A DNA stretch of 64,000 nucleotides from positions 62,001 through 126,000 of the IMG/VR virus record IMGVR_UViG_3300025309_000006; one strand, written 5' to 3'. The notes beneath the pieces were generated by a model. It did no database searches, was not told the DNA's origin, and worked only from the letters and a program-made list of their open reading frames with translations. Each line of letters starts with the position of its first letter. The stretch's first letter is position 1. Both the position numbers and the translations under genes were made by a program. The DNA comes from a virus. Positions 38,422 to 64,000 of the stretch are shown piece after piece.

Positions 38422-39276
38422 GTGAAAATATTTATTAACGCTGGTCATGGCCCAAAAGGAGTTAATAGTTCAGATTCAAATGGAATAGATCCAGGAGCAA
38501 TTGGAGCAACAGGATATAAAGAATACATAGAAACAAAAGAAATAGCAGATTTAGTATCTACAAAACTGAAATTTAATGGACTTGAAACATTAGTAATTCA
38601 AGATGGTGATTTATGGGATGTAACAAATCAGTCAAATGCTTGGAAAAGTGATTATTTTATTAGTATACACTGTAATTCGTACTCAGATTCTTCGGCAAAT
38701 GGTGTAGAAATTTTTTCATTAGCAACTACAGGGAAAGGTAGAGCACTAGCACAATCAGTACATAAAGAACTCATTCCTGCTACTGGATTGTTTGACAGAG
38801 GTTTAAAAACAGCAAATTACTATGTACTTAGGGAAACTGATTGCCCTGCTATTTTAACAGAAATTGGATTTATTTCTAATCCTAAAGAAGAAGCATTAAT
38901 GAAAGATTCTACATGGGATGATAAGGTTTCGAGTGCTATAGCAAGAGGAATTTGTAATTTTATTGGATTGGCTTATAAAGAGCAAATTGTTCAAACTATT
39001 CAGTCAACAATAAATAATAGTCAAGGAGATGATAATGTATTAAATGCTGTGCTTGGTTTCTCTCTCAATGACTTAGGTGCTTGTATGTTAGTTTCTCAGA
39101 AATTAAATAATTGTGCAATTTACTTTAGAAACACAGATAAGACTTTTAATCAAGATTGCTTAAAAGCCGATACTTTATATGTTGTAGGAGGAAGTACAGT
39201 TGGACATAAAAAAGAGAAATTGCTATCTGGTAAAGAAGCAAAAGATACATTGCAAAAAGTTGTAGATATTTTGTAA
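38422..39276 (+). CDS. Endolysin: N-acetylmuramoyl-L-alanine amidase (Amidase_3)
   Basis: 284 residues, GTG start behind AAGGTGAAA. Residues 1-180 form an Amidase_3 domain: zinc ligands in NAGHG (His 9), a Glu in EYIETKE (37-40) and SIHCNS (His 83), and the catalytic Glu in LTEIGF (Glu 147). A linker (IQSTINNSQGDD) leads to a ~75-residue C-terminal domain (VLGFSLNDLGACMLVSQKL...LYVVGGSTVG) that resembles a single CWB2-like or related clostridial wall-binding unit. No signal peptide, so export depends on the holins encoded downstream. Confidence 0.9.
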   Translation: MKIFINAGHGPKGVNSSDSNGIDPGAIGATGYKEYIETKEIADLVSTKLKFNGLETLVIQDGDLWDVTNQSNAWKSDYFISIHCNSYSDSSANGVEIFSLATTGKGRALAQSVHKELIPATGLFDRGLKTANYYVLRETDCPAILTEIGFISNPKEEALMKDSTWDDKVSSAIARGICNFIGLAYKEQIVQTIQSTINNSQGDDNVLNAVLGFSLNDLGACMLVSQKLNNCAIYFRNTDKTFNQDCLKADTLYVVGGSTVGHKKEKLLSGKEAKDTLQKVVDIL

Positions 39277-42957: not shown

Positions 42958-43110
42958 AATAGGAATCTAATTTTGAAATCCCTATTCTAGCAAGAGTTTA
43001 AAGGTTTTAAAAATAATATATTTTGCATATAAGTGTTTTCTTACTGCACCACATGCAGTTACTTTAGAAATACCCGTAAAAGCTTATAAAGGAAGGGGTT
43101 GCATTTGATT

Positions 43111-43758
43111 ATGCCAACTGATTTAGAAAAACAAATTGATATACAATGGCACAAACTTGATGATGATCGTTACGTTTATCTTCTTACAGGGGAATCGTTT
43201 AATAATTTAGAATATTTGGGAGCAGTTAAGAGAGAAATTGAAAATGCTCAGTTAAAAGATTTTCATGAACATTCAAAGTTGCTAAGAAAATATGGCATTG
43301 ATGTAAATAGAAAAATTAAAAACAAAGGTGATAAAACACCAATTGAAACAACATGTATTGCTTGGAAAGATACAAAGAAGGACTTATTCATTAAAGTATA
43401 TAGAGGTGAAGGAGTCGAATTAATTATGAATAAGACATTGGATATTTTTGAAAAGGGATTTATGTTTACTATTCAGTCATTTGTTGAATTCAGAACAAAT
43501 TGTGTAATTATAGACAGGGAATTCCCTACAGTAGAATATCTAGCAGAGTTAGCAGGTATGAGTCCTAGAAAGGCAAATGATATTATAAAGTCTTTAGAAA
43601 AGAAGAATATAATTAAGAGGTATAAAGATGGATTACATAAGAAAATATTTGTTAATCCTCATTATATGTGTGCAGGAGCGATTATTGAAGGTGAGATACC
43701 TTCTTATTTTGTGTCTGAAATAGAAGAAGAAACTATGGAATTATTTAATAGGCAATAA
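43111..43758 (+). CDS. Winged-helix protein, RepL-like replication initiator candidate
   Basis: 215 residues from ATG 43111; TTG 43105 is nearer the AAAGGAAGGGG site and could be the start. The C-terminal half has a winged helix: FPTVEYLAELAGMSPRKANDIIKSLEKKNIIKRYKDG followed by KKIFVNPHYMCAGA, closely resembling the end of RepL-type plasmid initiators (turn to VNP). The N-terminal half is unassigned. It could initiate plasmid-state replication or act as a transcriptional regulator. An ACTGC/GCAGT hairpin lies upstream (~43032). Confidence 0.5.
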   Translation: MPTDLEKQIDIQWHKLDDDRYVYLLTGESFNNLEYLGAVKREIENAQLKDFHEHSKLLRKYGIDVNRKIKNKGDKTPIETTCIAWKDTKKDLFIKVYRGEGVELIMNKTLDIFEKGFMFTIQSFVEFRTNCVIIDREFPTVEYLAELAGMSPRKANDIIKSLEKKNIIKRYKDGLHKKIFVNPHYMCAGAIIEGEIPSYFVSEIEEETMELFNRQ

Positions 43759-48087: not shown

Positions 48088-48117
48088 GAGAGAGTAGAAA
48101 GTGAGGTGAGGAAATAT

Positions 48118-48147
48118 ATGATTGTATTAACAAATATCAATACATAA
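48118..48147 (+). CDS. Nine-residue leader peptide candidate
   Basis: ATG behind a very good GTGAGGTGAGG site encodes MIVLTNINT then stops, 63 bases before the next ATG. The good site on such a short frame suggests a leader peptide or a truncated start. No clear attenuator follows. Confidence 0.4.
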   Translation: MIVLTNINT

Positions 48148-48210
48148 ATTATTAAGTTCACAATCTCCATAAAGTAAAAAATAAAATAATGAAAGTAGGT
48201 TAATTTATAA

Positions 48211-48735
48211 ATGTTTAATGTAAAAGAAATTAAAACTGGCAATGTCTTTGAGGTTTTTCAAGTGTTCGATTATACATATCTAAATAAAAATCAATTTGTA
48301 TTTTTAATGTATGATTATAGTATCAATGAATGGGCTATGTCAGATAGTAAGTATTTTGAGCCACTTACAGATATAAGCAAAGCTATTACAGAAGAAAAAT
48401 CTGGTTTTGTGAAAGGTCTATTTAGTGGATTTAAAGGATTATCTACTGAGAGTGTAATGGAAAGATTAAGTGAGTCATGGGAATCTATACCACAATGTAT
48501 TAAAGAAAATATTTGTTTGTCTCTTGGCAGCAAGGGGAACAGTGAAAAACTTATGGTTGTTTTGGATGAGTTTTCTAAACAAAACAAATTGTATATAGAA
48601 AAAGAAGAAGAACGTAAACGATTAGAAGACTTGTTAAAATCTAAACAAGATGAGCATAGTAAGAAAATTTCTATTTTACAGGAAGAGTTTAATAACGCTG
48701 AAAAATTAATTAATGAAAAGTTAAAAGGATTGTAA
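48211..48735 (+). CDS. Unknown protein with C-terminal coiled coil
   Basis: 174 residues, ATG behind AAAGTAGG. The N-terminal ~60 residues are beta-like (VKEIKTGNVFEVFQVFDY), the middle includes KSGFVKGLFSGFKGL, and the C-terminal ~55 residues are a Lys/Glu coiled coil. Driven by the strong promoter at 48059. Not recognised. A TAAACCC/GGGGTTTA hairpin follows. Confidence 0.5.
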   Translation: MFNVKEIKTGNVFEVFQVFDYTYLNKNQFVFLMYDYSINEWAMSDSKYFEPLTDISKAITEEKSGFVKGLFSGFKGLSTESVMERLSESWESIPQCIKENICLSLGSKGNSEKLMVVLDEFSKQNKLYIEKEEERKRLEDLLKSKQDEHSKKISILQEEFNNAEKLINEKLKGL

Positions 48736-48795
48736 GATTAAACCCATAGCAGAGGGGTTTATACTCTGCTTAATAATTACAAAGGTTGTGATTAT

Positions 48796-49302
48796 ATGCT
48801 ATATATAATTGGTTATTTTGATGGAAGCGTTAAAAATGAAAAAGCCATAGGTGTTTGGACTTATAGTTTATATGAAAAATTAAATAAACAATCTCCAAGG
48901 ACTAAAATAAAAACTGAGAGAGGTTGGGATTATTGTTTTTACGCAAATAGCATACAAGCCGAATTTATTGGGTTAATTGGTTTATTAGATAAATTAAAGC
49001 AATATTTCGAGATTGGTTTTATTAATTTTTTATTAATTAATGGAGATTGCGAGAGTATTATCAATCAAATTAAATACAAAAAATCAACTGACAACGAAAT
49101 ACTTAAAGACTATTTATTATTAGCAAAAGAATTGGTATCTATGTGTGAAGTTCCTATTGATCTTCAATGGATTCCTAGAAGCAAGAATAAATCTGCGGAT
49201 AAATTGTGCAAAATGGTATGGGAAGATTTGAAGAATAAAATGAGGAATACTAAAAATATATTTGGAAGTAATCAACCAGAAAATATTTTAGAATTTATTT
49301 AG
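48796..49302 (+). CDS. RNase H-like protein
   Basis: 168 residues, ATG behind AAAGGTTGTG. The RNase H fold active site is visible: Asp 9 in GYFDGS, Glu 56 in SIQAEFIGL, Asp 84 in LINGDCESI, and Asp 135 in NKSADKLC. The IPRSKNKSAD turn is typical of type 1 RNase H. It probably removes RNA primers or acts on RNA-DNA hybrids during element replication. Expressed just after a coiled-coil unknown gene, possibly cotranscribed. Confidence 0.85.
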   Translation: MLYIIGYFDGSVKNEKAIGVWTYSLYEKLNKQSPRTKIKTERGWDYCFYANSIQAEFIGLIGLLDKLKQYFEIGFINFLLINGDCESIINQIKYKKSTDNEILKDYLLLAKELVSMCEVPIDLQWIPRSKNKSADKLCKMVWEDLKNKMRNTKNIFGSNQPENILEFI

Positions 49303-49405
49303 TTTTTTGTTAGTGAATTGTTAGAGCAATAAATAAATTAAACAGGTGAGAACTTGCAAGTTTTAATTGGTAGCTACCCTCCCTGATCAGGAGGAGAGAA
49401 AGAAA

Positions 49406-50533
49406 TTGGAAAACAATATATATTATGTTTATGAATATATACGACTAGACACAAATGAGCCATTTTATGTAGGAAAAGGCTGTAAGAATAGATGGTGTAA
49501 CACCAAACAGAGAAATAAATATTTTAAAAACATAATTAGTAAAATTCCAGTAGCAGTACATATTTTACATGAAAATTTATCCGAAATTGAAGCATTTGAA
49601 TATGAATGTTGGTATATCAATGAATACAAATATAATATGAGTTATGATTTAACCAATATTATCGATGGTGGAGAAGGAGGGGATACAAGATCAGGAAACT
49701 CAGAAGAAAACATCAAACTAAATAAAAAGCAAAGTATTTCCAGCAGAGGAATGAACGCTATATTGAATGAGGAAAAAGTCAAAAAAATAAAGATAGAAAT
49801 ATTAAATAATATAGATATGCACTATATAGCTAAAAAATACAGTGTAAACTATACCACTATTTGTAAAATTAAAACATGTAAAAATTGGGAATGGGTATGT
49901 AGTGAGTTAAATAATAAATTATTAACTATGAATAAAGATCAAGATGATAAAATAATTGATTATTATTACAGCAACCCACATTTATCAATGGTTCAGATTG
50001 GTTTAGATTTAAATACAGCATATGGAAGAGTTCGGAAATTAATAAGTGATAAAATAAAATTAGAATCAAGGAATATTATAGGCGTAAACCTAAAGAACCA
50101 ACTTTATAAGAGTAGAATTACAATAAAAGGAAAGGAGATTCATCTTGGTCATTACAGAGAATTAAAATATGCAGAAAAGGTTAGATTAATTGCCGAAATA
50201 GTATATTTAAAAGATAAATCTCCGCAGAAACACAAGTTAAAAAAATACGACTTAGACTTTAAAGATATTGATATAAATACTTTAAATGAATTTATCAATA
50301 AATATTCAACTAAATCAACCGTTAAAATTATTTGTTTGACTACAGGAGTTATTTTTAATAGTTTCAAAGAAGCCGAAAATTTCTATAGAATCAATAATTT
50401 TAGCAAGAATGGTTATTTGTGTTTAACAGGGAAGAGAAAAACTTTTGGCAAGCATCCAATTACAGGTGAACCTCTAAAATGGCAATACTACGATGAATAC
50501 ATAAAATCAAACCAACTCCCAACCGCAATATAA
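49406..50533 (+). CDS. GIY-YIG homing endonuclease with HTH and NUMOD1
   Basis: 375 residues; TTG 49406 is chosen because AGGAGGAG lies seven bases upstream, while the TTG at 49367 has no site. Domains: GIY-YIG (YYVYEYIRLDTNEPFYVGKGCKNRW...EAFEYECWYINEY, residues ~4-85); a glycine-rich linker (DGGEGGDTRSGN); NUMOD-type HTH (MHYIAKKYSVNYTTICKIKTCKNW); an AP2-like strand region; and C-terminal NUMOD1 (IICLTTGVIFNSFKEAENFY...LTGKRKTFGKHP). The ribosome binding site sits in a CTCC/GGAG hairpin (49378-49394). Confidence 0.88.
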   Translation: MENNIYYVYEYIRLDTNEPFYVGKGCKNRWCNTKQRNKYFKNIISKIPVAVHILHENLSEIEAFEYECWYINEYKYNMSYDLTNIIDGGEGGDTRSGNSEENIKLNKKQSISSRGMNAILNEEKVKKIKIEILNNIDMHYIAKKYSVNYTTICKIKTCKNWEWVCSELNNKLLTMNKDQDDKIIDYYYSNPHLSMVQIGLDLNTAYGRVRKLISDKIKLESRNIIGVNLKNQLYKSRITIKGKEIHLGHYRELKYAEKVRLIAEIVYLKDKSPQKHKLKKYDLDFKDIDINTLNEFINKYSTKSTVKIICLTTGVIFNSFKEAENFYRINNFSKNGYLCLTGKRKTFGKHPITGEPLKWQYYDEYIKSNQLPTAI

Positions 50534-50568
50534 CTATATAACTATATTTATATATAGTTATATAGTTA
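50531..50568. repeat. 16-bp perfect A+T-rich palindrome
   Basis: TAACTATATAACTATA and its exact inverse, 6-nt loop, overlapping the 3' end of the homing endonuclease gene. It could be a terminator core or a protein-binding site; no T run. Confidence 0.65.
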
Positions 50569-50611
50569 TAAATATAAATAAATAATTTAATATACTTAAA
50601 GGAGTGATAAA

Positions 50612-50824
50612 ATGAATAAAAATTGGACAGAAGAAGATATTATTAAAGCAAGAGAAATGTTAGACAAAGCTATAAAAGAGAAAGATTATTTATATTATCC
50701 GGAAAATTCAGATAGATGTATTTTAGATAAATTTAAGATAAGGAGTCAACAGTGGTACAACCAATTTCACTCCAAACTGCAATATAACCAAATAAATAAA
50801 TATAAAGGAGAATTAACATGGTAG
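50612..50824 (+). CDS. Small protein, unknown
   Basis: 70 residues, ATG behind AAAGGAGTG. NWTEEDIIKAREMLDKAIKEKD suggests a helical start resembling a SANT/Myb-like helix; C-terminus aromatic and basic. Overlaps the next gene by seven bases, which is typical translational coupling. Not recognised. Confidence 0.5.
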   Translation: MNKNWTEEDIIKAREMLDKAIKEKDYLYYPENSDRCILDKFKIRSQQWYNQFHSKLQYNQINKYKGELTW

Positions 50825-51141
50825 CAATAAGAAGGGTATACATAGACATTGATTGGACAAAAATGCAAACTTTACATAAGAAAATAACCTCTTCTCATAT
50901 TGATTGTATGAAAACAAAATGGAGTCCTTTTAGAGATGAATGGAAGCAAGGTTTTGATAGTGATTGTTGTTGTGGTCATTGTACTAATACTGAGCATTGT
51001 TTTGAAGCATTTAGGGATAAAAGATGTCATCTAGAAAATCATTTTAAACCTATAATCGTTGAGTTTGAGAAGAAATCATGTTGGGACGATGAAGAGGTAA
51101 ATATATTTAATATAATATCGTTGAAAGGAGGTGAACACTAA
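50818..51141 (+). CDS. Cysteine-rich small protein, unknown
   Basis: 107 residues; ATG overlaps the preceding gene and has AAAGGAGAA upstream. The middle has a dense Cys/His cluster (DSDCCCGHCTNTEHCFEAFRDKRCHLENHF), probably a zinc site. The next gene begins at its stop (TAATG). No family recognised. Confidence 0.55.
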   Translation: MVAIRRVYIDIDWTKMQTLHKKITSSHIDCMKTKWSPFRDEWKQGFDSDCCCGHCTNTEHCFEAFRDKRCHLENHFKPIIVEFEKKSCWDDEEVNIFNIISLKGGEH

Positions 51142-51281
51142 TGACAGAATTAGAACATAAAGAACTAGTAGAAAGTCTAAATCAAATGATGGTAGAGATT
51201 ATAAAAGTCAAAGAATTACAAAAAGTCCTTGTAGGTATATCTGGGATAGATATTAATCAAGAAGATTGGAAGAATTATTAA
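51141..51281 (+). CDS. Small helical protein, unknown
   Basis: 46 residues; ATG overlaps the preceding stop, behind a perfect AAAGGAGGTGA. Coiled-coil-like (ELEHKELVESLNQMMVEIIK, then ISGIDINQEDWKNY). Part of the four-gene operon 50612-51500. Not recognised. Confidence 0.5.
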   Translation: MTELEHKELVESLNQMMVEIIKVKELQKVLVGISGIDINQEDWKNY

Positions 51282-51302
51282 TATTTTAGGAGGTGATATA
51301 AA

Positions 51303-51500
51303 ATGGAAATAACAACTATGACTCTAGAAGAAGCAGAAAAGATTGGTTACGTTGCAAAAATCAAAGAACTCTACTGTGAATTAAAATCAGTTTGGCCTAC
51401 ATTTTCAGAAAAAACTAGAGACAATTTGACAATGTTGCTTGGTGGTTTGAAGGATAAAAGTGAAGTTATGGCTTTGATGGGTAAGGAAGATGATAGGTAA
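51303..51500 (+). CDS. Small protein, unknown
   Basis: 65 residues, ATG behind TTAGGAGGTGA. Helical, EEAEKIGYVAKIKELYCELKS then SEKTRDNLTMLLGGLKD. End of the small-gene operon. Not recognised. Confidence 0.5.
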   Translation: MEITTMTLEEAEKIGYVAKIKELYCELKSVWPTFSEKTRDNLTMLLGGLKDKSEVMALMGKEDDR

Positions 51501-51592
51501 AAGAGTAATGGTAACACTCTCTGGGAAATAATTTATGTAGTTAGAGTAAATAAAAAATAAATGGGTGATGGCCGACATTAAGGAGAAAAAAT

Positions 51593-52228
51593 ATGATTTA
51601 TTTATTAGATGGTTTAGAATTTAATGTTAGTAATATAGTGGAGTTTCTAGACTCTTATCAAAACAAAATTACCTCTTATAATGGATTTAATATGCAACAA
51701 ATAATTCTTGATAAGTTACTCGAAGGAATAAAAACAAATCAATTAATACATACACAATGGTTAAGAGGGATTGGCAAAACTCATACATTAATTGCGTTAG
51801 CAAAAGAAGCAGATTGTATTGTATTAGAACCAAATGTAGCTGTGGCATCTGCTATAGCAAAAAGGGAAAATTATTCAAAAGTATACCCTGCATCCATTGA
51901 TTTTCTGAGAGGTAATACTTTAAGTAATTATGGCTATAGGTACAGCAAAGATAATCCTTTGGAAGTTGTTGTGGACGAAGGAGTAACAAATATTAAAGCT
52001 ATTGAAGATATTGGATTTAAAGTAGTTACTGGATTTTATACTCCTAAGAAAGAAGATGAAATTTCATTTAATGATAAAGTAACGAGAACTCTTATGAATG
52101 AAATTGAAGCTCTTACTCCTAAGTTAGAATTAACAAGGGAAAGTAAAGATTATGGAACATATAAGAATTTAATTAATGCTTATAGAGAGGTGTTAAATCT
52201 TATGAGATATTTTCCAGATAATCATTAA
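51593..52228 (+). CDS. Small P-loop ATPase-like protein
   Basis: 211 residues, ATG behind TAAGGAGAAAAA. Residues ~54-63 (THTQWLRGIGKTHTL region) form a degenerate Walker A of the R-G-x-G-K-T type that lacks the first glycine; VVVDEG near residue 123 fits Walker B. The segment QIILDKLLEGIKTNQLIHTQWL upstream is typical of small phage ATPases (terminase-like or AAA-related). It is too short for a terminase or helicase. Followed by a strong bidirectional terminator. Confidence 0.6.
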   Translation: MIYLLDGLEFNVSNIVEFLDSYQNKITSYNGFNMQQIILDKLLEGIKTNQLIHTQWLRGIGKTHTLIALAKEADCIVLEPNVAVASAIAKRENYSKVYPASIDFLRGNTLSNYGYRYSKDNPLEVVVDEGVTNIKAIEDIGFKVVTGFYTPKKEDEISFNDKVTRTLMNEIEALTPKLELTRESKDYGTYKNLINAYREVLNLMRYFPDNH

Positions 52229-54507: not shown

Positions 54508-55121
54508 GTGACAACCTCCATTTCGACAATGATGGTTATATTATAGCATATTTAGTTGTTTTGTTCAAATTTGAGGTAATATGAAATTAATAAAATAATA
54601 AAAACAAACAAAAAAGAAACGAAGATTGGCTGTACACACCAAATTCTTCATTTTAGCAGAGACCTTGAGATAATAAAAGCCATTGAGTTAGTTTGAGCTA
54701 GAAGAATGCTGAAAATAACTCAATGTGCTTATTGTAGCATGGATTGGGTTGAGTTGTAAAGGTTAGGGTTTTTGGGATGGATATATTATCCCATAAAAGT
54801 ATGTTTTTATTTTGTTTGAAATAATGGTTTTGAAAGTGGCTTATAGCAAGGGTTGTAGAGGTGGTAATTGTTGGGATTTGGGTTATTTGGAGGGATTTTT
54901 GAGGTAAATTAGTTAGAATTTAATATTTTTTATTTTTAAAGAGCTGTTGAGGTTCTTTTTGTTTTGTTTTGTTTGGGTAGAAATTGAAATTGAATTTAAT
55001 ATTGGTTGGATAGGAGTCAGGCCAGACTTTTATCTGTAAAACGAGGCACTTGAGTTTTCCTTAGAACTTGAGTGTCTTATTCCAATTGTGGCTCTTATTA
55101 AGGAAAGGGGATAGATTTATT
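54508..55121. other. 614-base intergenic region with several hairpins
   Basis: Divergent region. Holds GAAGATTGG / CCAAATTCTTC (54621-54649), CATTGAGTTA / TAACTCAATG (54681-54725, perfect 10 bp), and a terminator-like AGGCACT-AGTT / AACT-AGTGTCT hairpin (55044-55078) just upstream of the endonuclease. No supported gene; the middle is G/T-rich on the plus strand. Confidence 0.5.
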
Positions 55122-56834
55122 ATGGGATTGATAACAAAAGAGGTTTGGGTAGAAGTAGGTAAAAATTTAAAACATTATGAAAAATTAAATTATTTTATAC
55201 CAAAATCAATAAATAAGTACGGAAAATTAACTGTTTCAAGAGGAACTAGAATATTAGTTAAAGTAGAAGATTTGCCTAATCGTTCTGCTGTATTTGTTGA
55301 TTGTGAATGTAACGGTTGCGGAAAAGAAATAAATAGAATACCGTGGTATAATTATAAAAGATCAGTAGTAGACGATAATAAATATTATTGTCATCAATGT
55401 GCAAAGGCTGGTCATAAAGAATGGATAAGTTTCTTTAGATGGTGTTACTTAAATTTATATAAAGAATTAGCAGATTATATTTTATCCAGATGGGATTATG
55501 AATTGAATATTGATAAAAATGGTAAATTAATAACACCAAAAGATATTAGTCATTCATCACAAGGTATTAACGGAAAAGGATATTGGTTTAAGTGTTTAGA
55601 ACATCCAGAGCATCTATCAGAACAGAAAAGTATTAGCGGTTTTGTCGGAGGGACTCGTAGTATTACTTGCAATCAATGTAATAAGGTCTCCATTACATAC
55701 CCTGCTCTCATTAAATATTTAGTAAATGAAGCTGATATGTATAAATACTCTCTTGGTTCAAATGAACAAATCCCTATGAGATGTCCATATTGTGGATATG
55801 AGAAGGATATTACAATTCCTGTTTTTATAAGAGTTGGATTTGGATGTTCAAGATGTTCAGACGGTGTGTCGTTCAGTCAAAAATTTATAGCATGTTTTTT
55901 AGAGCAGATATTAGATAAAGATTTTACAATAGAACTAAGTAAAAAAACTTTAAAATGGTGTGATAACTATAGATATGATTTTTATACAGAAAAATTAAAC
56001 GGAATTATTATAGAGGCAATGGGTATACAGCACTACGAAGAATCTTTTAGAAAAATAAGTAAAAAAGCTAGAAGTTTAGAAGAAGAACAAAAGAATGACA
56101 GAGATAAAGAACAATTAGCAAAAGAAAATAATATTGAAAATTATATAGTTTTGGATTGTAGAAAAAGTGAAATGAATTGGATTAAAAATAGTATCATGAA
56201 TAGTAATTTACCAAAATTATTAAATTTTATGGAAAAAGATATAGATTGGTTGAAATGTGGCGAAGCAGGTTATTCAAGTTTGATTAAGATTGCTTGTGAT
56301 TATTGGAATAGTGGAATAAAGAGTGTCAGAGAGATAGCAGAGAAAATGAAATTACATAGTGCTACAATTTCAAGATATCTTAAACAAGGTACTGAGTTAA
56401 ATTGGTGTGATTATGGTGGGAAAGCAGAGATGTTTCGTAAGGTAATATGTTTAACCACAGGGGAAGTTTTTAATAGTGTTACGGAAGCTGAAAATAAATA
56501 TAATACTTCTCATATTTCAGATTGTTGCAAGGGAAATAAAAAGACATCTGGAAAACTTTTAGATGGAACTAAACTTGTGTGGGTTTATTATGAAGAATAT
56601 ATATTAAGAACAGAGGAAGAAATTACAAGTATTTTAAATAATTCAAAAAATATTCGGAATGTAAAAATAATATGTACAACAACTGGTGAAAAATTTGAAA
56701 AAATATCTGATGCGGAAATCAAATATAATATTTCTGCACAAAGTATATCTAAATGTTGTAAAGGTAAATTAAATTCAGCAGGTAAACATCCCAATACAGG
56801 AGAGAAAATGGTTTGGAAAATATTTGATAAATAA
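55122..56834 (+). CDS. Large homing endonuclease: zinc ribbons, Vsr/EDxHD-like nuclease, HTH, two NUMOD repeats
   Basis: 570 residues from ATG 55122 behind AAGGAAAGGGG; the TTG frame upstream crosses a hairpin. Order: zinc-binding pairs (CNGCGKEI, CHQCAK; CNQCNK; CPYCGYEK, CSRCSDG), a nuclease core RYDFYTEKLNGIIIEAMGIQHYEE with basic EEEQKNDRDKEQLAKEN, an HTH (VREIAEKMKLHSATISRYLKQG) and two NUMOD-like repeats (ICLTTGEVFNSVTEAENKY; ICTTTGEKFEKISDAEIKY). It shares the core and HTH region with 5712-7145, so the two are paralogues with different tails. Confidence 0.8.
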   Translation: MGLITKEVWVEVGKNLKHYEKLNYFIPKSINKYGKLTVSRGTRILVKVEDLPNRSAVFVDCECNGCGKEINRIPWYNYKRSVVDDNKYYCHQCAKAGHKEWISFFRWCYLNLYKELADYILSRWDYELNIDKNGKLITPKDISHSSQGINGKGYWFKCLEHPEHLSEQKSISGFVGGTRSITCNQCNKVSITYPALIKYLVNEADMYKYSLGSNEQIPMRCPYCGYEKDITIPVFIRVGFGCSRCSDGVSFSQKFIACFLEQILDKDFTIELSKKTLKWCDNYRYDFYTEKLNGIIIEAMGIQHYEESFRKISKKARSLEEEQKNDRDKEQLAKENNIENYIVLDCRKSEMNWIKNSIMNSNLPKLLNFMEKDIDWLKCGEAGYSSLIKIACDYWNSGIKSVREIAEKMKLHSATISRYLKQGTELNWCDYGGKAEMFRKVICLTTGEVFNSVTEAENKYNTSHISDCCKGNKKTSGKLLDGTKLVWVYYEEYILRTEEEITSILNNSKNIRNVKIICTTTGEKFEKISDAEIKYNISAQSISKCCKGKLNSAGKHPNTGEKMVWKIFDK

Positions 56835-56840
56835 TATTAT

Positions 56841-56882
56841 AGAGAGTAATCACAAAATTAATGTGATTACTCTCTATTTTTT
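56841..56882. terminator. Bidirectional terminator
   Basis: AGAGAGTAATCACA / TGTGATTACTCTCT, 14-bp perfect stem, 7-nt loop, ATTTTTT on the plus strand; also the end of the minus-strand operon. Confidence 0.92.
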
Positions 56883-56888: not shown

Positions 56889-58346
56889 TTAATTTTCCAT
56901 TACATGATTGATAATTAAAGTGGCGATATCCTTCTGAACCTTTGAAGAATTCACAAGTTTCGATCCCTCCCTAAGACAGAAATTCCATATAGGATTACTC
57001 CTACTTAGAAATTTTTTGTCTGACAACTTTGTAAGTCTATTCTCCCAATCATTTTCCTTGCGTAATCTATTAGCAAGAGCAAAGAAACCTGATATAAACA
57101 TATTTTCTAAAATAAAATTCTGCTTTCTTTGTTCCGATTTTGCTTCAATATCAATATTGCCCATTGCTTCAGGGAATATATTACTAATTAATTCATCCCA
57201 AAATTTAACAAGATATAAACCAATCTCTTCTGCTTCTTTTGGATTTAATGCTTTAAATTGTGCTACATTATCAAGTAGAGTTTTATAAGTGATAATTTTA
57301 TTGCTTGATTTTGAAATTGTTCCAGAAACTAACTCTATCTTACCTTTGAGCAAACTTTGATTCGCAATTATGTCAACAATTTTGCGATTTTCATTGAAAA
57401 CATCATGAAAAGCCAACCTAGTACGACTTACAGCCTTACCTTTTGAATTTGCTTCTACAAAAAGATTTTCTGACTCTGAGTGAGACAAATTAAAAATCAC
57501 CACTGGTATATAAAATTCTCTAGGATCTTTTATGCTAAGAGCATCCTTTTTGAATCGTTTAACCCAAATCTTCATACTTTCTAACCTATGGGCTGCATCG
57601 CAGATGGTTAAAGCATGTTGTCCAGATAAAGTATTGTCATCTTCGTTAAAGTGAAGTGGTTCAGGATATTCTTTTGCATAATTTAATAATACTTGACCAG
57701 CATCCATAGAACCGTCTAACATTTTTGATAAGATAGTTTTAACATTGGCAGTATAAATTAATGGTTTTTCCTCTCCTTTTGCGGTGGTACGCGAACCTCT
57801 CTGAACTGAGGGATCGTATATCACTGAAGGAGTTTTTCCAGAGTACATTTCATTTAGTTGATAACAATTTAATGTTGTGATCCATTTGTAAATAGAACCA
57901 TTACGATAAACGGGTTGGCAATTTGGTATTGACCAAAAATATCCATCTTCTTTATTATTGCTTTCTTTCCCAGTCTTAACCTTATTACTTAAACTACCAA
58001 ACACAGGCATATTGGCATTCCCCATATTTCTTTCTCTCATTTTTTTCTTTAGTTCTTCATCAGATTCTACAACTTTATCAATTTTATCAACTTCAATAAT
58101 CTTATCACTCCTATCTTCTTCCCATTTTTCATCCTCATCAATAATTTCATCCAAACTTTCAAATCCTGCTGAAGTTTCACTCATAGTTTTGCTAAATTCT
58201 TGTGTCATCGTATTGATTGCCTCTTCCTTAACTTGATTAACTACATTAGTGTTTGTCTGAGCAAGTCTGTCTCTACTTTTTCTTCCCATGTCTTCTTCTC
58301 CTTCCATAGTTTCCTTGACTAATTTATTAACCATATCAATAATCAT
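56889..58346 (-). CDS. DGQHR/DndB-like (ParB-nuclease-related) protein
   Basis: 485 residues, minus strand, ATG behind AAAGGCGG; an internal ATG near 58287 with its own GGAAGGAGAAG could give a shorter form. The N-terminal ~130 residues are acidic and low complexity. The core contains IYDPSVQRGSRTT, then LSGQHALTICDAAHRLESM, a variant of the D-G-Q-H-R/aHR motif, and VFNLSHSESENLFVEANSKGKAVSRTRL, matching the DGQHR domain of DndB-like proteins. Function could be regulation, partition-like binding or DNA modification control. It ends the conjugation-type operon. Confidence 0.65.
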   Translation of the reverse strand: MIIDMVNKLVKETMEGEEDMGRKSRDRLAQTNTNVVNQVKEEAINTMTQEFSKTMSETSAGFESLDEIIDEDEKWEEDRSDKIIEVDKIDKVVESDEELKKKMRERNMGNANMPVFGSLSNKVKTGKESNNKEDGYFWSIPNCQPVYRNGSIYKWITTLNCYQLNEMYSGKTPSVIYDPSVQRGSRTTAKGEEKPLIYTANVKTILSKMLDGSMDAGQVLLNYAKEYPEPLHFNEDDNTLSGQHALTICDAAHRLESMKIWVKRFKKDALSIKDPREFYIPVVIFNLSHSESENLFVEANSKGKAVSRTRLAFHDVFNENRKIVDIIANQSLLKGKIELVSGTISKSSNKIITYKTLLDNVAQFKALNPKEAEEIGLYLVKFWDELISNIFPEAMGNIDIEAKSEQRKQNFILENMFISGFFALANRLRKENDWENRLTKLSDKKFLSRSNPIWNFCLREGSKLVNSSKVQKDIATLIINHVMEN

Positions 58347-58420
58347 AATAAAACCGCCTTTCTATGACTATATCATATTTATACACAAAAACATAGAGAA
58401 TAATACCTAAATTTTCTTAA

Positions 58421-58450
58421 AAATAAAGAAAAAGAATGATTTCTCATTCT
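58421..58450 (-). terminator. Terminator inside the minus-strand operon
   Basis: AGAATGA / TCATTCT with a 4-nt loop; on the minus strand followed by TTTTCTTTATTTTT. Separates the small gene 58453-58620 from the DGQHR gene, which therefore probably has its own promoter. Confidence 0.75.
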
Positions 58451-58452
58451 TT

Positions 58453-58620
58453 CTAATCAATAATTATCCCTTTTTCTCTTAGAAAATCCTCTTCTGCAAG
58501 TAATATTTCCTCAATAAGATTCTCGTTAACTCCTGTCCTTTGAGCAATTTGTTGAATCATAAGATCAACATCAATCGTCGGTTTGCTAAAACTATTGATG
58601 ATGTTCCCTAAAATTCCCAT
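58453..58620 (-). CDS. Small protein of conjugation operon, unknown
   Basis: 55 residues, minus strand, ATG behind TAAGGAGATGG. MGILGNIINSFSKPTIDVDL, then QQIAQRTGVNENLIEEILLA, a short helical acidic protein; the middle resembles a small HTH-like helix pair. It starts 13 bases after the rep-relaxation stop, so it is cotranscribed. Not recognised. Confidence 0.5.
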   Translation of the reverse strand: MGILGNIINSFSKPTIDVDLMIQQIAQRTGVNENLIEEILLAEEDFLREKGIIID

Positions 58621-58633
58621 TATAGCCATCTCC

Positions 58634-59401
58634 TTATTTCATTTTCCATACCGTGATATCTGGAATTATTCTTATCTTTTTCATATTTGGATATTGAGTA
58701 AAAATATAAAAATTTTCTCTTAATTCTTCTATTTGAGCGATGTTAACTTGTTTGCCTAAGTTAGTTAATCTTCTAAACCCTGCTGAATTAGTTAACCAAA
58801 ACAATTGAGGAAACCCCTTTACCTTCTGAGATACTTTTTCGTAAATATCAATCTTTTCTTTCAGTTGTTTTTTAGATTCTGTCCCTGCGTCAATTTCAAA
58901 TAACAAGGTGGTGTCTTGTTCATCCTTAGTTAACACAATCAATATATCTGATCTAAAAATATATTGCTTACCATTTTCTCTATCCTTGTATTTATAAATG
59001 AATTCAGGTTTATATTGCTTAATAAAAATCTTATTTAAATTTTGCTCCCGAATCAGCAAAGCATAAATTTCATTAACTAATAGTTGATGAGTATAATCTG
59101 AAGGTAGTTTAGATAAATTCACTCCACCAATTTGGCAAAGTAATTTACCTGCCGTAACTAAGGATTCGCCATTTAATGCCACTGGAGTTCTTTTAATAAA
59201 TTCTAATCTTTCTATTTTAGCTAGTCTTCGATTACAAACAGTTAAACTTTGTTTAGATTGAAAGAACATTATTTGAATCTGAGTTCTGGAAAAAATTTTA
59301 AAATCTCTAATACTTCTTATTATCTCTAAATCTCTCCCCGTTAAATGGGCGTACTTTTGTCCCAAAATCAATTTTTCCAACATCAAATCTTTGCTGATCA
59401 T
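58634..59401 (-). CDS. Replication-relaxation family protein
   Basis: 255 residues, minus strand; ATG 59401 behind AGAGGTGATTG, six codons inside the end of the coupling ATPase gene. N-terminal winged helix: LTGRDLEIIRSIRDFKIFSRTQIQIMFF...CNRRLAKIERLEFIKR. The C-terminal part (HQLLVNEIYALLI; FRSDILIVL; LLFEIDAGTESKKQLKEKIDIYEK) is the restriction-endonuclease-like fold of the replication-relaxation family. Such proteins assist plasmid mobilisation or replication in Firmicutes. Overlap with the VirD4-like gene supports one operon. Confidence 0.85.
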   Translation of the reverse strand: MISKDLMLEKLILGQKYAHLTGRDLEIIRSIRDFKIFSRTQIQIMFFQSKQSLTVCNRRLAKIERLEFIKRTPVALNGESLVTAGKLLCQIGGVNLSKLPSDYTHQLLVNEIYALLIREQNLNKIFIKQYKPEFIYKYKDRENGKQYIFRSDILIVLTKDEQDTTLLFEIDAGTESKKQLKEKIDIYEKVSQKVKGFPQLFWLTNSAGFRRLTNLGKQVNIAQIEELRENFYIFTQYPNMKKIRIIPDITVWKMK

Positions 59402-61010
59402 TGTCAATCACCTCTATATTAAAATCTGGTTCGGGGATATAATCCGATTCCAAAATTTCTTCCATAATTTCATCAACAGAACGTAAATATTTTTGACTAT
59501 TTTGATTAATAGCATCTGGTATTTGCTTGCGTAAAGGTTTGGTTGGAGGATCACATTTAATAATAGATATACTTTTTTCACTTTTGTATAAAAATCTACA
59601 GAGTGCATGATATTTAGGAAGATTAAGAATAGCATATCTGTTAGACATATCTTTTTCTTCATCTCCTGTTTCAAATTCTTTAAACAGTGTTTGTGCTCCT
59701 CCTCTACCTATAGCAAAAGATATAATCTGAGGTTGTACTTCTAACATCATTCTAATAAGTGATTGAATTTGAGTTTGTTCTGGAGACTGGAAGAAAAAAT
59801 GTAAGCATAGTCGGTATTTTCTTGCTTCTGTTAAAATTTCTTCAATTCCAGCCTCATTTGACAAATACATTTGGGGTTCGTCAAGAAAAAGCATGAAAAT
59901 CCTCCTTTTATTTTTATCTGTAATATCAAATCTTGATAAAGCTGCAATCCAAAACTTAGAAATAATTAGAGGGATCAGTATCTCAATATTAACTTTTCCG
60001 ACAGCAACTTTTGGGGCTTTAATTAAAAGTATTTTTCCTTCATCCATTATCGTCCTGAAGTCAATAGTAGATTTGTTTTGACATATAATTGATTTCAAAT
60101 AATCATTATTAGTAAGATTTCCTACTTTGTTTAACAATGGTTTAATCATATCTCTTTTAACTGATGGAGGTTGGGCTTCAAATCTGTCCCAATATCTAAC
60201 AACAGAAGCGTTCCTTTTGTTTTTTCTTAAAGACTTTACTATTTGTTCACGATATTCTACTTCAGTTAACATTTTGATAATTCCTAAAAGAGTTTTAGGA
60301 TAATCAGTTTGTTTAAGAATCGCGTTCAATGAATTTGATAAAAGATCCTCACTTGCAAAACCTATTTGTTCTCCGAATCTTTTTTTGAAAAATGAAATTA
60401 TCTCTGCATGAATAAAGTGGGGAAACTGTTTCTCAACTTTTTCATCAAATTCTAAGAGATTAATTCCTGGAAGAAAATCTTTATTGGAAAAGTCTAATAA
60501 AACAACATCCTCTAATCTATTTTCTGGGATAGACATTAAAATATTGTCAATTAATGCTCCATCTGCTACGTCTATAACACAAAATCCTGCGGTATTGAAA
60601 TTTTGTAAATTGTTAATTTTAGATATTTGGATTGCAATATTTTCAGCCAAATTTGTCTTGCCACTCCCAGGTGAACCCACGTATATAGAATTTTTGCTAA
60701 GGTCGTCAAAATGATCTATAGGATAACTAATTACATTTTTTGTATTTAAATCTTTGCCCATTACTATACCATTACCTTTGAGTAAAAATTTACTAGGTTT
60801 TAACACTACCCTATCTCCTAACGAATTTTTATCATCGCCAAACTTCAAATTAGGTAATTTATAATCTGGAATACCTTGACCTAAAATACCATTTGAAATC
60901 ATTTGAACTGTATAACCAAGACATCCTAACACAAATTTACTGCTATATAGAGCAGAATATTTTCCTGATTTAATGGTTAAGTCTTTAATCTTATTAATTT
61001 TATCTCCCAC
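59307..61010 (-). CDS. VirD4/TraG-like coupling ATPase
   Basis: 567 residues, minus strand; GTG 61010 has AAAGGGG nine bases upstream, an in-frame TTG 61019 is closer than ideal. Walker A GSPGSGKTN (~112-120), Walker B IFMLFLDEPQMYL (~370-382), and an ARKYRLCLHFFFQSPEQ motif after it, as in type IV secretion coupling/HerA-FtsK ATPases. No N-terminal membrane helices. The C-terminal ~100 residues are acidic. Couples DNA substrates to the secretion channel. Overlaps both neighbours. Confidence 0.85.
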   Translation of the reverse strand: MGDKINKIKDLTIKSGKYSALYSSKFVLGCLGYTVQMISNGILGQGIPDYKLPNLKFGDDKNSLGDRVVLKPSKFLLKGNGIVMGKDLNTKNVISYPIDHFDDLSKNSIYVGSPGSGKTNLAENIAIQISKINNLQNFNTAGFCVIDVADGALIDNILMSIPENRLEDVVLLDFSNKDFLPGINLLEFDEKVEKQFPHFIHAEIISFFKKRFGEQIGFASEDLLSNSLNAILKQTDYPKTLLGIIKMLTEVEYREQIVKSLRKNKRNASVVRYWDRFEAQPPSVKRDMIKPLLNKVGNLTNNDYLKSIICQNKSTIDFRTIMDEGKILLIKAPKVAVGKVNIEILIPLIISKFWIAALSRFDITDKNKRRIFMLFLDEPQMYLSNEAGIEEILTEARKYRLCLHFFFQSPEQTQIQSLIRMMLEVQPQIISFAIGRGGAQTLFKEFETGDEEKDMSNRYAILNLPKYHALCRFLYKSEKSISIIKCDPPTKPLRKQIPDAINQNSQKYLRSVDEIMEEILESDYIPEPDFNIEVIDNDQQRFDVGKIDFGTKVRPFNGERFRDNKKY

Positions 61011-62511
61011 TATACTCAACCCCTTTCATTTCTTCGTAATTAGTGTTGAATAGAAGATATTCTTTATCATCAAATATTGGTCTAAAAGCATATTGCTTAG
61101 TTCCTATAGTCATCCAACCTTGTCCTTTCTCAATTCTAGATAAGTAGTCAATAATGTGAGGTGGTATATTCATATAATTACTAATATGTTGCAACTCTAA
61201 AGAAGTTAAATGAAGAATTAAAGTATTGGCACAATTTTTAATAATTAATTCAATATCATCCTTAGAGCAATCAGTGAGGTTCTGGGTGCAAACAAAAATG
61301 CCCACCCCTCTCTTACGATAACCTTTAGCAATTGCTACAACTCTCTTAATTACTGCATCCGTTTTTAAAATATTCCATGCTTCATCAATTACAATAAGAC
61401 AATCTTTAAATTCAGTTTTGAGTAAGAACTTTTCAAAATCCTTAGATATAATAACAATATTCCTTGAAGTTAATTTAGCATATTCACCAGTGATATCAAG
61501 AATATAAATTTTCTTATGTGCAGATATTTTCTTTATAATTGACTTTACTGCAAAACTCTTGCCACTTCCTGAAATTCCAAAAATGAAAAATGAATTATTA
61601 AATGTCTCTGCAAAGTTAATTTTAATTAATTGATGGTTTTGATAATCATATCCAATAGTAATACCTTTGCCGGAAACATATCTTACAAATGGATAGAAAT
61701 TACTAATTGCACTTGTTAAAAATACTTTTAACTCCTTTACATGATCAATTTCTTTGTATGCTCTGAAATTCTTGAAACAATTAAAATGTTCACAATTAGC
61801 AAACTTAAATCTTATCTGCATACCATCTAAAAGCATAGATATTTGCTTTGTTTTTGTTTCTAATTGTTCAAGTGTTTGTCCTTTAATTAAGATATATAAT
61901 CCAACCATGCAAAGTTTTTCTTCATTTCCCATAAGATCAACCATTGTTTTTTGTAACTTCTCTACAATTTCATCTTCTACAAAAAACTCTTGATTTGGGT
62001 TCTTTGAGGCTTTCCAATTTACATTTGCTTCAGTAGTATCAATTCTTTTTTTTACGGCCTTTACAGCCTCTTCTTGTGGCAATGGAAAGATAGTAATAGC
62101 AATCTCAGTGTCAGGAATCATTAGATTGTTTATGAATCCCACAGAAAGCATTTGAGGATATTGGATAACTTTAATTAATTTAGCAAAATATTTTTCATTG
62201 TTTTCAGTGACAGAAATATACTTCCTAAATTCTTTAATTTGGATATTGCTTGAAGTTGAACATTCAGATTGAGCATAGTCCATTCCCGAATTACGCAGGT
62301 TTTCACAAATATCAGAATTGGTAATTAGATAATAACTTGATTCGTTTATTTGTGTATCTTTGTTTAAATAATTTAAATCAGTTTTACAAATTATCCTTGA
62401 TGAATCATTTAGAGAATTTAGCAAATATTTAAACTTGGATCTGAGTAATATTTGATCTTCTTTTGTTGCTAAAAGATAGTTTGCTTTTGGGTAAAGTTGA
62501 TATTGAAACAT
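61000..62511 (-). CDS. VirB4-like conjugation ATPase
   Basis: 503 residues, minus strand. The C-terminal half is an ATPase: Walker A GISGSGKSFAVK (~314), KKIYILDITGEYAKL, Walker B CLIVIDEAWNIL (~374), RKRGVGIFVCTQNLTD and SLELQHISNYMNIP, all standard VirB4/TraE features. The N-terminal half is the pilus-assembly domain, with VDLMGNEEKLCMVGLYILIKG. Starts inside the 3' end of the PrgI gene (83-base overlap). Powers channel assembly. Confidence 0.9.
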   Translation of the reverse strand: MFQYQLYPKANYLLATKEDQILLRSKFKYLLNSLNDSSRIICKTDLNYLNKDTQINESSYYLITNSDICENLRNSGMDYAQSECSTSSNIQIKEFRKYISVTENNEKYFAKLIKVIQYPQMLSVGFINNLMIPDTEIAITIFPLPQEEAVKAVKKRIDTTEANVNWKASKNPNQEFFVEDEIVEKLQKTMVDLMGNEEKLCMVGLYILIKGQTLEQLETKTKQISMLLDGMQIRFKFANCEHFNCFKNFRAYKEIDHVKELKVFLTSAISNFYPFVRYVSGKGITIGYDYQNHQLIKINFAETFNNSFFIFGISGSGKSFAVKSIIKKISAHKKIYILDITGEYAKLTSRNIVIISKDFEKFLLKTEFKDCLIVIDEAWNILKTDAVIKRVVAIAKGYRKRGVGIFVCTQNLTDCSKDDIELIIKNCANTLILHLTSLELQHISNYMNIPPHIIDYLSRIEKGQGWMTIGTKQYAFRPIFDDKEYLLFNTNYEEMKGVEYSGR

Positions 62512-62776
62512 TTTGTTTTGTCATTCCTTTCCACTTAAATTTAAAGAAAGATACTACTCCTTGGTCTATATCTGTTTTCGTAAGAATTGCTGTAGGAATA
62601 CCAATATTTGGTAATATAAATAATTTTAAATAAATAGGTAAAGTTGTATTAAAAACCGATAATCCAAGTATAACCCCACCTATTAAATAAATAGTTTGTT
62701 TCCCTGTAAGTCCATAAAATATTTCATCCTTCATTTCAATAATTTGATTTGTGTCGAACATTTCAGTATTTAACAT
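62429..62776 (-). CDS. PrgI family conjugation protein
   Basis: 115 residues, minus strand, ATG directly after AAGGAGGTAATTTA. N-terminal MFDTNQIIEMKDEIFYGLTGKQ leads to two hydrophobic segments (TIYLIGGVILGLSVF; LPIYLKLFILPNIGIPTAIL) and ends FFKFKWKGM...KSKLSFS. This is the PrgI/VirB3-type organisation of Gram-positive conjugation systems. The last ~28 codons overlap VirB4. The tail RRSNITQIQV is basic. Confidence 0.82.
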   Translation of the reverse strand: MLNTEMFDTNQIIEMKDEIFYGLTGKQTIYLIGGVILGLSVFNTTLPIYLKLFILPNIGIPTAILTKTDIDQGVVSFFKFKWKGMTKQNVSISTLPKSKLSFSNKRRSNITQIQV

Positions 62777-62780
62777 TAAA

Positions 62781-63776
62781 TTACCTCCTTCTACTCGCTC
62801 CTCTTCTTGAAGACATCATACCTCCCATTCTACCAAATCCACTATATCTAATAAGTTTTCTAGGGCTTAATCCATATTTTATCTCTCTAAACATAGCAAC
62901 TGGATTCGGAGCTTGGTGTCCATAACTAATCCATTGTTGAACATATGAAGGTGCTTTTAGCATAAATGATCCTGCCGATATACAAAGCATAATATGATAA
63001 AGTCCTCCGTGATTTGATTTTGATATTGAAGACTCAAATCCTAACCAAATCACCATAATAATCGCATGGATAATTGGAGCAATTAAGTTATCTAATAATT
63101 CATCAATCCATACCTGTCTCATATTTTGATGTTTGGGAAATAAACATAGATAGAAAAATATAGGTGCTGTAGCAACTAGAAACATAATAGAAATCATTCT
63201 CATGAAATAAAACCATATTAAATTGACTAATATCATTGCAAAAATTAAAGTGAATATAATTAGACCTAAACCATACTGTGGAGTTAAAGCTCTGACCATT
63301 TGTGCTTCTGAACCGCCTAGAGATAGAATAACAATGGTAAATTTGTTTGTTGCATCTATTATCATTGGAAGTGCAATTATTGCAATATTTACAATGACCA
63401 TTGATTGAGCTATCTTCACAATATATTCTGTACTCTGATATTTACTACTTTTATTCATAATTTGCATAATTCCAAAATATACAATTCCTGCTATTGAGAA
63501 TGTCATTATGATCTTTAAGAAGAAATAGTATAAAGATAATATTGTAGGATTTTCTGCCAATACATTAGGCGTGTGAAGAAATAATTGTGTAAAATTTTGA
63601 ACTAGAGAATCAGTAATAAAATGTTCTAATCTTCCATTTACTGTAGAAATATCTTGAGGTGTAGGTGCATTAAATAAAGCATCATTAACATTTTGAACTG
63701 TTTCTAGGGATGGAGGTGTGATAAAAAATTTAATTATAGCATCTCCTGCTTCTCCAACAGTGAGCAATGGAATCAT
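62781..63776 (-). CDS. VirB6/TrbL-like polytopic membrane protein
   Basis: 331 residues, minus strand. About six hydrophobic segments (residues ~82-105, 120-145, 165-190, 190-215, 230-250, 255-275), including IIFTLIFAMILVNLIWFYFMRMISIMF, where the invariant Trp/Tyr-rich pattern fits the VirB6/TrbL core. The C-terminus is glycine/arginine-rich (MGGMMSSRRGASRRR). Stops four bases before PrgI, so they are coupled. Inner-membrane channel component. Confidence 0.8.
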   Translation of the reverse strand: MIPLLTVGEAGDAIIKFFITPPSLETVQNVNDALFNAPTPQDISTVNGRLEHFITDSLVQNFTQLFLHTPNVLAENPTILSLYYFFLKIIMTFSIAGIVYFGIMQIMNKSSKYQSTEYIVKIAQSMVIVNIAIIALPMIIDATNKFTIVILSLGGSEAQMVRALTPQYGLGLIIFTLIFAMILVNLIWFYFMRMISIMFLVATAPIFFYLCLFPKHQNMRQVWIDELLDNLIAPIIHAIIMVIWLGFESSISKSNHGGLYHIMLCISAGSFMLKAPSYVQQWISYGHQAPNPVAMFREIKYGLSPRKLIRYSGFGRMGGMMSSRRGASRRR

Positions 63777-63806
63777 CCCCTTTATGAAGTTATAATAATT
63801 TTAATC

Positions 63807-64000
63807 TTAAAATTTTGGCATTGTTGGAAATACTCCTTTAAGTATTGTCCAGACAATCTTCACTACCCAAGGCCCAACAATTATAGTTATACATCCACGG
63901 ATTACCGATTCCTTAAGCTCTTTGGATTGAGCTTTCCAATTTCCATTTCCAATGACATCCATGACACCAGCCCAGACTATCATGATCATAGCTAAACCAA
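63807..64000 (-). CDS. Small membrane protein, VirB2/pilin-like (5' partial)
   Basis: Minus strand; the frame is open to the right window edge, so the start is missing. Visible: GLAMIMIVWAGVMDVIGNGN, then a helical KAQSKELKESVIRGC and a hydrophobic ITIIVGPWVVKIVWTIL. Two short hydrophobic stretches around a charged loop and location just before VirB6 fit the VirB2/TrbC-like pilin of Gram-positive conjugation operons. The call is by position and topology. Confidence 0.5.
   Translation of the reverse strand, partial: GLAMIMIVWAGVMDVIGNGNWKAQSKELKESVIRGCITIIVGPWVVKIVWTILKGVFPTMPKF

Follow-up and report, generated by a model that had tools for sequence, protein, structure and literature searches.

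A predicted minimal monoderm type IV secretion cassette on the genomes of large tailed phages

Introduction

In the usual view, tailed phages pass from cell to cell as particles. Our searches of open-access literature brought up no description of a complete phage-encoded type IV secretion system (T4SS), and a complete minimal T4SS maintained as a phage cassette is, as far as that literature shows, undescribed; single genes of this kind have already been annotated in phage G and in SPO1-like phages. Here we report on a T4SS operon in the 230,300-bp IMG/VR viral contig IMGVR_UViG_3300025309_000006 (G000 below). The window, i.e. the whole stretch of 64,000 nucleotides that was analysed, corresponds to positions 62001-126000 of this contig, and a contig coordinate equals the window coordinate plus 62000.

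The closest described machinery is found among monoderm systems. The mating-pair formation class MPF-FATA (CD1110-type VirB4, plasmids and integrative and conjugative elements of Bacillota) and the relaxase-poor T4SS of Patescibacteria share with G000 a PrgI protein, VirB6, VirB4, a VirB2-like pilin (PF18895), a cell wall hydrolase and, probably, a VirD4-type ATPase. G000 differs from them in its shorter VirB4, in having a tailed phage as its carrier, and in lacking both TcpC/VirB8 and a relaxase of the families tested. VirB8 is not universal in monoderm systems when sought by profile search.

Phage-plasmids, P1-like and others, resemble G000 in combining phage genes with partition and replication genes, and differ in that no T4SS channel set in an intact phage was found in the open-access literature searched. 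For P1-like phage-plasmids, the gain of a relaxase or of an origin of transfer (oriT) is reported mainly on their turning into plasmids (PMC10879196). The 'conjugative prophage' Phi1207.3 was presented as a prophage that can be transferred from one streptococcus to another, and in later work as a temperate phage (PMC4260502, PMC9927172; discussed in PMC5154133), and the abstracts and passages of these papers do not mention a T4SS for it. Finally, the SPbeta-like phages have a similar head module, the G000 portal being 34% identical over 89% to those of SPbeta-group phages such as SPR and BUCT082; however, these phages measure 120-135 kb against about 230 kb or more for G000, which adds the T4SS cassette and in which our search found no serine recombinase.

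Genes of the secretion operon

Sequence comparison and gene order indicate that large tailed phages of Bacillota-type hosts very probably carry a minimal Gram-positive (monoderm) T4SS as a conserved cassette, composed of an M23 peptidase, a VirB2-like pilin, VirB6, PrgI/VirB3, VirB4, a VirD4-like ATPase and a Replic_Relax protein. In G000 the operon lies on the minus strand at window 56889-64000 and continues upstream beyond the window end. All of the genes that a preliminary description of this DNA had placed there (VirB2-like, VirB6-like, PrgI, VirB4-like, VirD4-like and replication-relaxation) are indeed present; absent from its list were the DndB/DGQHR-like, M23 peptidase, ParM and ParR-like genes. 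In transcriptional order, the run comprises:

Contig 126649-127230, minus strand: M23 peptidase (PF01551, 2.8e-27), outside the window
Between the M23 peptidase and the pilin, minus strand: 65-aa hydrophobic open reading frame (ORF), listed by its position in the operon
Window 63807-64058 (contig 125807-126058), minus strand: VirB2-like pilin, 83 aa (PF18895, TrbC/VirB2, phrog_3528)
Window 62781-63776 (contig 124781-125776), minus strand: VirB6/TrbL-like polytopic membrane protein, 331 aa (phrog_3750, 3e-6)
Window 62429-62776 (contig 124429-124776), minus strand: PrgI/VirB3-like protein, 115 aa (PF12666 PrgI, 3.3e-5)
Window 61000-62511 (contig 123000-124511), minus strand: VirB4-type ATPase, 503 aa (PDB profile search, NCBIfam)
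Window 59307-61019 (contig 121307-123019), minus strand: VirD4-like coupling ATPase, 570 aa (phrog_5156, 1.6e-70)
Window 58634-59407 (contig 120634-121407), minus strand: Replic_Relax protein, 257 aa (PF13814, 6.8e-12, above cut-off)
Window 58453-58629, minus strand: 58-aa ORF between the Replic_Relax and DndB-like genes
Window 56889-58346 (contig 118889-120346), minus strand: DndB/DGQHR-like protein, 485 aa, last gene of the same-strand run

The genes overlap or almost abut one another, with a PrgI/VirB4 overlap of 83 bp in both G000 and its divergent relative G004, and a VirB4/VirD4 overlap of 17-20 bp. A promoter scan gave no signal above chance.

Among these predicted functions, that of VirB4 is the firmest. 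The protein possesses a Walker A motif (GISGSGKS) and a DEAW motif as expected of a VirB4-type ATPase; its best PDB profile match is the Thermoanaerobacter VirB4 domain (4ag5/4ag6, 5e-21, as compared to 3e-8 for HerA), it matches the CD1110 VirB4 model of NCBIfam (NF045971) at 1e-31, under the equivalog cut-off, and it is 28% identical to gp155 of phage G. The PHROGs family to which it belongs, phrog_2666, carries the label 'terminase large subunit', which can mislead annotators and conceal T4SS genes in phages. The identity of the VirD4-like protein is suggested by its position, its P-loop (Walker A GSPGSGKT), its PHROG family and its plasmid homologues, which are annotated as conjugative DNA transfer or TraM-recognition proteins; it is 27% identical to phage G gp156 and 24-25% to SPO1 gp27.4. 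The Replic_Relax protein also matches phrog_9381, 'replication initiation by nicking' (3e-15), and has homologues in SPO1 (27.3) and phage G (gp146), with invariant residues D154, E171-x-D173 and T176-E177.

Both the VirB6-like and the PrgI-like membrane proteins adjoin VirB4. The former, with five hydrophobic segments, was recognised via phage homologues, being 22% identical to phage G gp153, which itself matches PF19597 (TrbL_4, 1.8e-11). The latter scores 24.8 bits against a PF12666 cut-off of 27, its homologue in L117 (a 175-kb contig, IMGVR_UViG_3300042923_001771, related to Bacillus phage G) reaches 2.4e-5, and it can be aligned with its phage homologues. The pilin gene, which extends 58 bp past the window end at 64000, encodes a protein with two hydrophobic segments that matches PF18895 (T4SS_pilin, 9.5e-4) and TrbC/VirB2 (6e-3), each under the Pfam cut-off, and phrog_3528 (2e-7). 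It aligns with the L117 pilin and with phage G gp150, which exceeds the PF18895 cut-off (3.7e-6), and a GNG...K.LK motif is common to the three.

The role of VirB1 may be filled by the M23 peptidase, a cell wall hydrolase present in G000 and in L117; it has an N-terminal hydrophobic, signal-like segment, retains the catalytic HxxxD and HxH motifs and is predicted to be secreted. At the other end of the run, a 54-aa ORF similar to the 58-aa ORF occurs at the matching place in G004, and the DndB-like protein matches PF14072 (3.8e-17), phrog_5732 (1e-31) and PADLOC DndB (4e-7).

Occurrence in other phages and linkage to phage genes

The T4SS operon and a tailed-phage genome lie on one molecule. 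The sister contig G003 matches G000 over 184,833 bp at 100%, covering head, tail, lysis and T4SS genes, while the contigs G001 and G002 support the sequence around the operon over 52.8 and 42.2 kb; these four contigs possibly derive from related samples of one site and are not fully independent. Independent evidence comes from G004, whose operon proteins show 73-92% amino acid identity to those of G000, with a lower value for the DndB-like protein (46% over 474 aligned residues; 39% by tblastn), as compared to 24% for the tape measure, about 42% for the endolysin and about 37-40% for the polymerase. The dN/dS values between G000 and G004 are 0.075 for VirD4, 0.085 for Replic_Relax, 0.117 for VirB4, 0.119 for VirB6, 0.16 for the pilin, 0.18 for PrgI and 0.20 for the M23 peptidase, and the cassette genes are therefore maintained under purifying selection. 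dS is mostly 0.2-1.1 in the operon (1.9 for Replic_Relax) as opposed to 1.2-1.5 for the tape measure, endolysin, polymerase and reductase, which is compatible with a more recent exchange of the operon as a module.

The complete genome of the cultured phage G (NC_023719) carries the same genes: gp150 (pilin, PF18895), gp153 (TrbL_4), gp154 (PrgI-like, by position and alignment only), gp155 (VirB4), gp156 (VirD4-like) and gp146 (Replic_Relax, 4e-25). The GenBank note on gp155 reads 'type IV secretory pathway protein; VirB-like'; the VirD4-like gene is noted as 'MsbA-like' in the annotation. In L117, the M23 peptidase, pilin, VirB6, PrgI, VirB4 and VirD4-like genes follow in the G000 order with a divergent Replic_Relax gene, and its VirB4 is 66% identical to that of phage G, in which no M23 peptidase was identified adjoining the cassette. 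The order from pilin to VirD4-like gene, accompanied by Replic_Relax, is hence shared by phage G, L117 and G000, whereas protein identity to G000 is only 18-28%, the VirD4-like proteins of phage G and L117 bear an N-terminal extension of ~250 aa, and their Replic_Relax genes are on the opposite strand. The virion lineages also differ, phage G having an annotated tail sheath and G000 an SPbeta-like portal.

A subset of these genes is found in SPO1, where Replic_Relax (27.3), VirD4-like (27.4) and ParM (27.9) genes lie on one strand together with a ParR-like gene, with no VirB4 match and no VirB6 or pilin identified. Similarly, the 25.7-kb portal-bearing contig G037 possesses ParM, ParR-like and VirD4-like genes, and VirB4 was not detected in it. 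The Replic_Relax and VirD4-like genes are found together in G000, G004, L117, phage G and SPO1, while ParM and ParR-like genes adjoin the VirD4-like gene in G000, SPO1 and G037. It seems, therefore, that the DNA-side subset is more widely spread than the channel. In 35 portal-bearing relatives, searches detected no VirB4 and a single VirD4 (in G037), although most of these contigs stop short of the place of the operon and so provide no evidence of absence. A nucleotide search in phage records gave no match, and no relatives came up when genome contigs of bacteria and archaea were scanned twice for VirB4 and VirD4, so that no host was assigned.

The preliminary description had noted T4SS and tailed-phage genes on one molecule, and had named a chimeric assembly, or chromosomal neighbours, as what might overturn this. 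The absence of end repeats, the open contig ends and the possible common origin of the identical contigs would leave room for a chimera, with a phage and a conjugative element joined in the assembly; nevertheless, the 184,833 bp shared with G003, the G001 and G002 contigs, the divergent G004 and the complete, cultured phage G rule it out for practical purposes, and we consider it vanishingly improbable. The chromosomal-neighbour reading was likewise considered and is disfavoured. Since other contigs and phage G show this linkage too, this is a conserved phage-borne cassette and not a one-off plasmid fusion.

As a separate observation, the right arms of G000 and G003 are non-identical past a sharp breakpoint (contig 25817 and 210649), apart from one stretch of 88% identity, which suggests that early-gene regions are switched at the strain level within the population.

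Virion and lysis genes

G000 is a large phage with an SPbeta-like head. The genes that mark it as a tailed phage are:

Contig 48096-49937, plus strand: terminase large subunit (TerL_ATPase 5e-4, Terminase_6C 7e-4, below cut-off; phrog_9 2e-7)
Contig 49970-51595, plus strand: portal (phrog_2739, 1e-48)
Window 18412-24655, plus strand: tail tape measure, two ORFs (phrog_4211, 1e-108)
Window 38422-39276, plus strand: endolysin, 284 aa (phrog_435, 6e-55)

The preliminary description had proposed looking for a terminase and a major capsid protein; the former was found next to the portal, while family searches of G000 named no major capsid protein. The phage side of the preliminary description is borne out by the endolysin and the tape measure. 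The tape measure of ~1,974 residues that it reported is a genuine tape-measure gene, yet this length presupposes joining two ORFs of 374 aa (18412-19536) and 1609 aa (19826-24655), with an insert of about 290 bp, out of frame, lying between them, as seen from the frames and from tblastn against the tape measure of the relative. The insert is intron-like, but no known intron family of Rfam matched it.

Partition and replication genes

Terminase, portal, tail and lysis genes are accompanied in G000 by genes of plasmid type, located upstream of the T4SS cassette and outside the window:

Contig 129072 to about 129962, minus strand: ParM actin (PF17989 1.2e-6; phrog_691 partition protein 2e-27)
Contig 128857-129111, minus strand: ParR-like small ribbon-helix-helix (RHH) protein, by reading, with no family match
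Contig 131919-132890, opposite strand to the operon: DnaA_N-containing replication protein (DnaA_N, 8e-12)

Directly before the parM ribosome-binding site lies a perfect palindrome of four iteron-like units of 10 to 11 bp (TTGTAATACAA, TTGTAAGACA, TGTCTTACAA and TTGTATTACAA), with one base separating the middle two. This arrangement resembles a parC site or operator and may act as one.

Possible functions of the cassette

We favour the view, to which we would give a little under one chance in two, that the cassette serves contact-dependent export, in which phage nucleoprotein would leave an infected or carrier cell and enter a neighbour that touches it. The M23 peptidase would open the cell wall locally, VirB6, VirB3 and VirB4 would form a membrane channel together with the pilin, and the VirD4-like ATPase would recruit the substrate, fed by Replic_Relax. 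ParM and ParR may bind the site adjoining parM and draw the phage DNA towards the membrane, from where the nucleoprotein would pass into the adjoining cell, and the phage would thereby have, in addition to its particles, a second way to spread that depends on contact. In plasmid R1, ParM contacts the coupling protein and the VirB4-like ATPase and stimulates transfer (PMC4949242). This view is favoured by the full channel set, encoded in a single same-strand run whose tight spacing is conserved, by the VirB4 match, by the secreted M23 peptidase upstream, by the DNA-side partners (Replic_Relax, ParM and the ParR-like protein) that go with the VirD4-like gene, by the same set and order in two lineages that otherwise share little (G000 and G004; L117 and phage G), and by purifying selection on every channel gene (dN/dS 0.08-0.20).

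Several results weigh against export. Three relaxase families were searched: PF03432 has no match in G000 and PF02486 none in G000, G003, G004 or the L117 record, the positive control matching in both cases, while PF01076 gave no match but its control was silent too. TcpC/VirB8 (PF12642) was not matched in the four records, with a matching control, although a very divergent VirB8 could escape this profile. Scanning the region near Replic_Relax revealed no convincing oriT; its only perfect inverted repeat (window 56839-56877) lies past the 3' end of the operon and is a possible terminator. Furthermore, the VirD4-like protein matches coupling-protein profiles weakly (TraG-D_C 0.09, CD1115 0.04), making this assignment weaker than that of VirB4, and to our knowledge no nicking activity has been demonstrated for Replic_Relax. 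The AlphaFold models of the two proteins (pLDDT 41 for the VirD4-like protein and 46 for Replic_Relax) were too poor for a fold search. For a lytic phage, moreover, conjugation would bring little advantage except where infection proceeds slowly or without lysis.

Two other explanations retain some weight, since these searches brought up no relaxase, no VirB8 and no convincing oriT. The T4SS could be a protein or exclusion device acting on touching cells or on the envelope of the infected cell without DNA transfer, through effector delivery or by blocking superinfection or rival elements. Patescibacteria offer a precedent in a relaxase-free monoderm T4SS kept for other functions (PMC12102498), and in G000 the genes sit with early and replication genes, not with late virion genes, to judge from strand and neighbours, and could thus act early; nevertheless, the VirD4-like gene has a DNA-processing partner in Replic_Relax and, in three phages, ParMR as well, and no effector-like gene was identified in the operon, so that we judge such a device unlikely. 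Quite unlikely, in our estimate, is a purely intracellular role, in which the VirD4-like protein, together with Replic_Relax and ParMR, would tether phage DNA to the membrane or move it there for segregation of a carrier-state genome or as a packaging feed, with the channel genes as accessories. Such a role would suit SPO1 and G037, which have the DNA-side genes and no detected VirB4, as well as the iteron-like repeats directly before parM, whereas a pilin, VirB6, PrgI, VirB4 and a secreted peptidase, all under purifying selection, make little sense internally.

The infected cell might also take in DNA from its neighbours or from lysed cells, in the manner of the archaeal Ced system, given that in NCBIfam the CedB model is matched by VirB4 (2.6e-13) and the CedD model by the VirD4-like protein (8e-5); these matches are far under cut-off, the VirB4 conjugation families score much higher (1e-31), and Replic_Relax and the M23 peptidase fit export better, which renders import improbable. 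Very improbable is a DndB/HerA-type defence island instead of a secretion system. A DndB-like gene does stand at the operon end, the ATPases weakly match HerA and mads_8 models, and the VirD4-like profile matches DptH at 0.04, but no DndCDE-type genes were recognised among the proteins scanned near the operon, VirB4 outscores HerA, and a pilin, VirB6, PrgI and M23 peptidase are present.

The preliminary description had interpreted this DNA as a phage-plasmid with a conjugation apparatus. This 'conjugative phage-plasmid' reading is only partly supported: ParM, the ParR-like RHH protein, the four iteron-like repeats, the DnaA_N protein and the lack of any integrase in the G000 record fit a plasmid-like state; conjugation as such is not supported, given the relaxase, TcpC/VirB8 and oriT results above. 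The RepL-like protein placed at 43111 was not confirmed as RepL, the protein at window 43099-43758 showing only a weak match to phage replication-initiation families (2.4e-5 over 49 residues). Circularity, also proposed as a check, was not seen; G000 has no terminal repeats, both its ends are open, and a query across the end-to-end junction had no match in its relatives. The argument from the missing integrase is weakened by G003, which at 206.6 kb, in a region that G000 does not reach, encodes a 186-aa recombinase with a XerD-like catalytic domain that could be an integrase or a dimer resolvase. Phage G is generally regarded as virulent, and SPO1 is virulent. As the former carries the cassette and the latter its ParM/VirD4/Replic_Relax subset, such genes alone do not imply a plasmid life.

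That at least two very different lineages of large phages maintain a complete T4SS cassette under selection implies that some phages have kept conjugation-type machinery. That giant tailed phages, phage G included, encode a working conjugation-like machine moving genome or nucleoprotein from cell to cell independently of the virion is a bolder proposition, which we consider less likely than not; if true, it would represent a virion-independent transmission route common to very different phage lineages. Phage G is available in culture, and the use of the T4SS in spread, exclusion or effector delivery is thus directly testable.

Further features of the contigs

Further along G000 are genes for DNA polymerase III alpha, ribonucleotide reductase, a RecD-like helicase and an NAD-dependent ligase. 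The large subunit of the reductase (contig 146331-149597) contains an intein with a LAGLIDADG domain. A large homing-endonuclease-like protein occurs three times (window 55068-56834; contig 130047-131552 and 206818-208554) at about 68% DNA identity, two of the copies flanking the T4SS region, and with several additional GIY-YIG/HNH-type ORFs this amounts to a heavy load of homing elements. In the right arm of G003 (186317-189410), a nicotinamide phosphoribosyltransferase-like gene lies near a ribose-phosphate pyrophosphokinase-like gene, both identified by reading, in a layout that resembles the phage NAD+ rebuilding (NARP1-like) pathway. Finally, a RAGATH-18 structured RNA (48.4 bits, above the Rfam gathering score) is situated amid the tail and lysis genes at window 37867-37934 on the plus strand.

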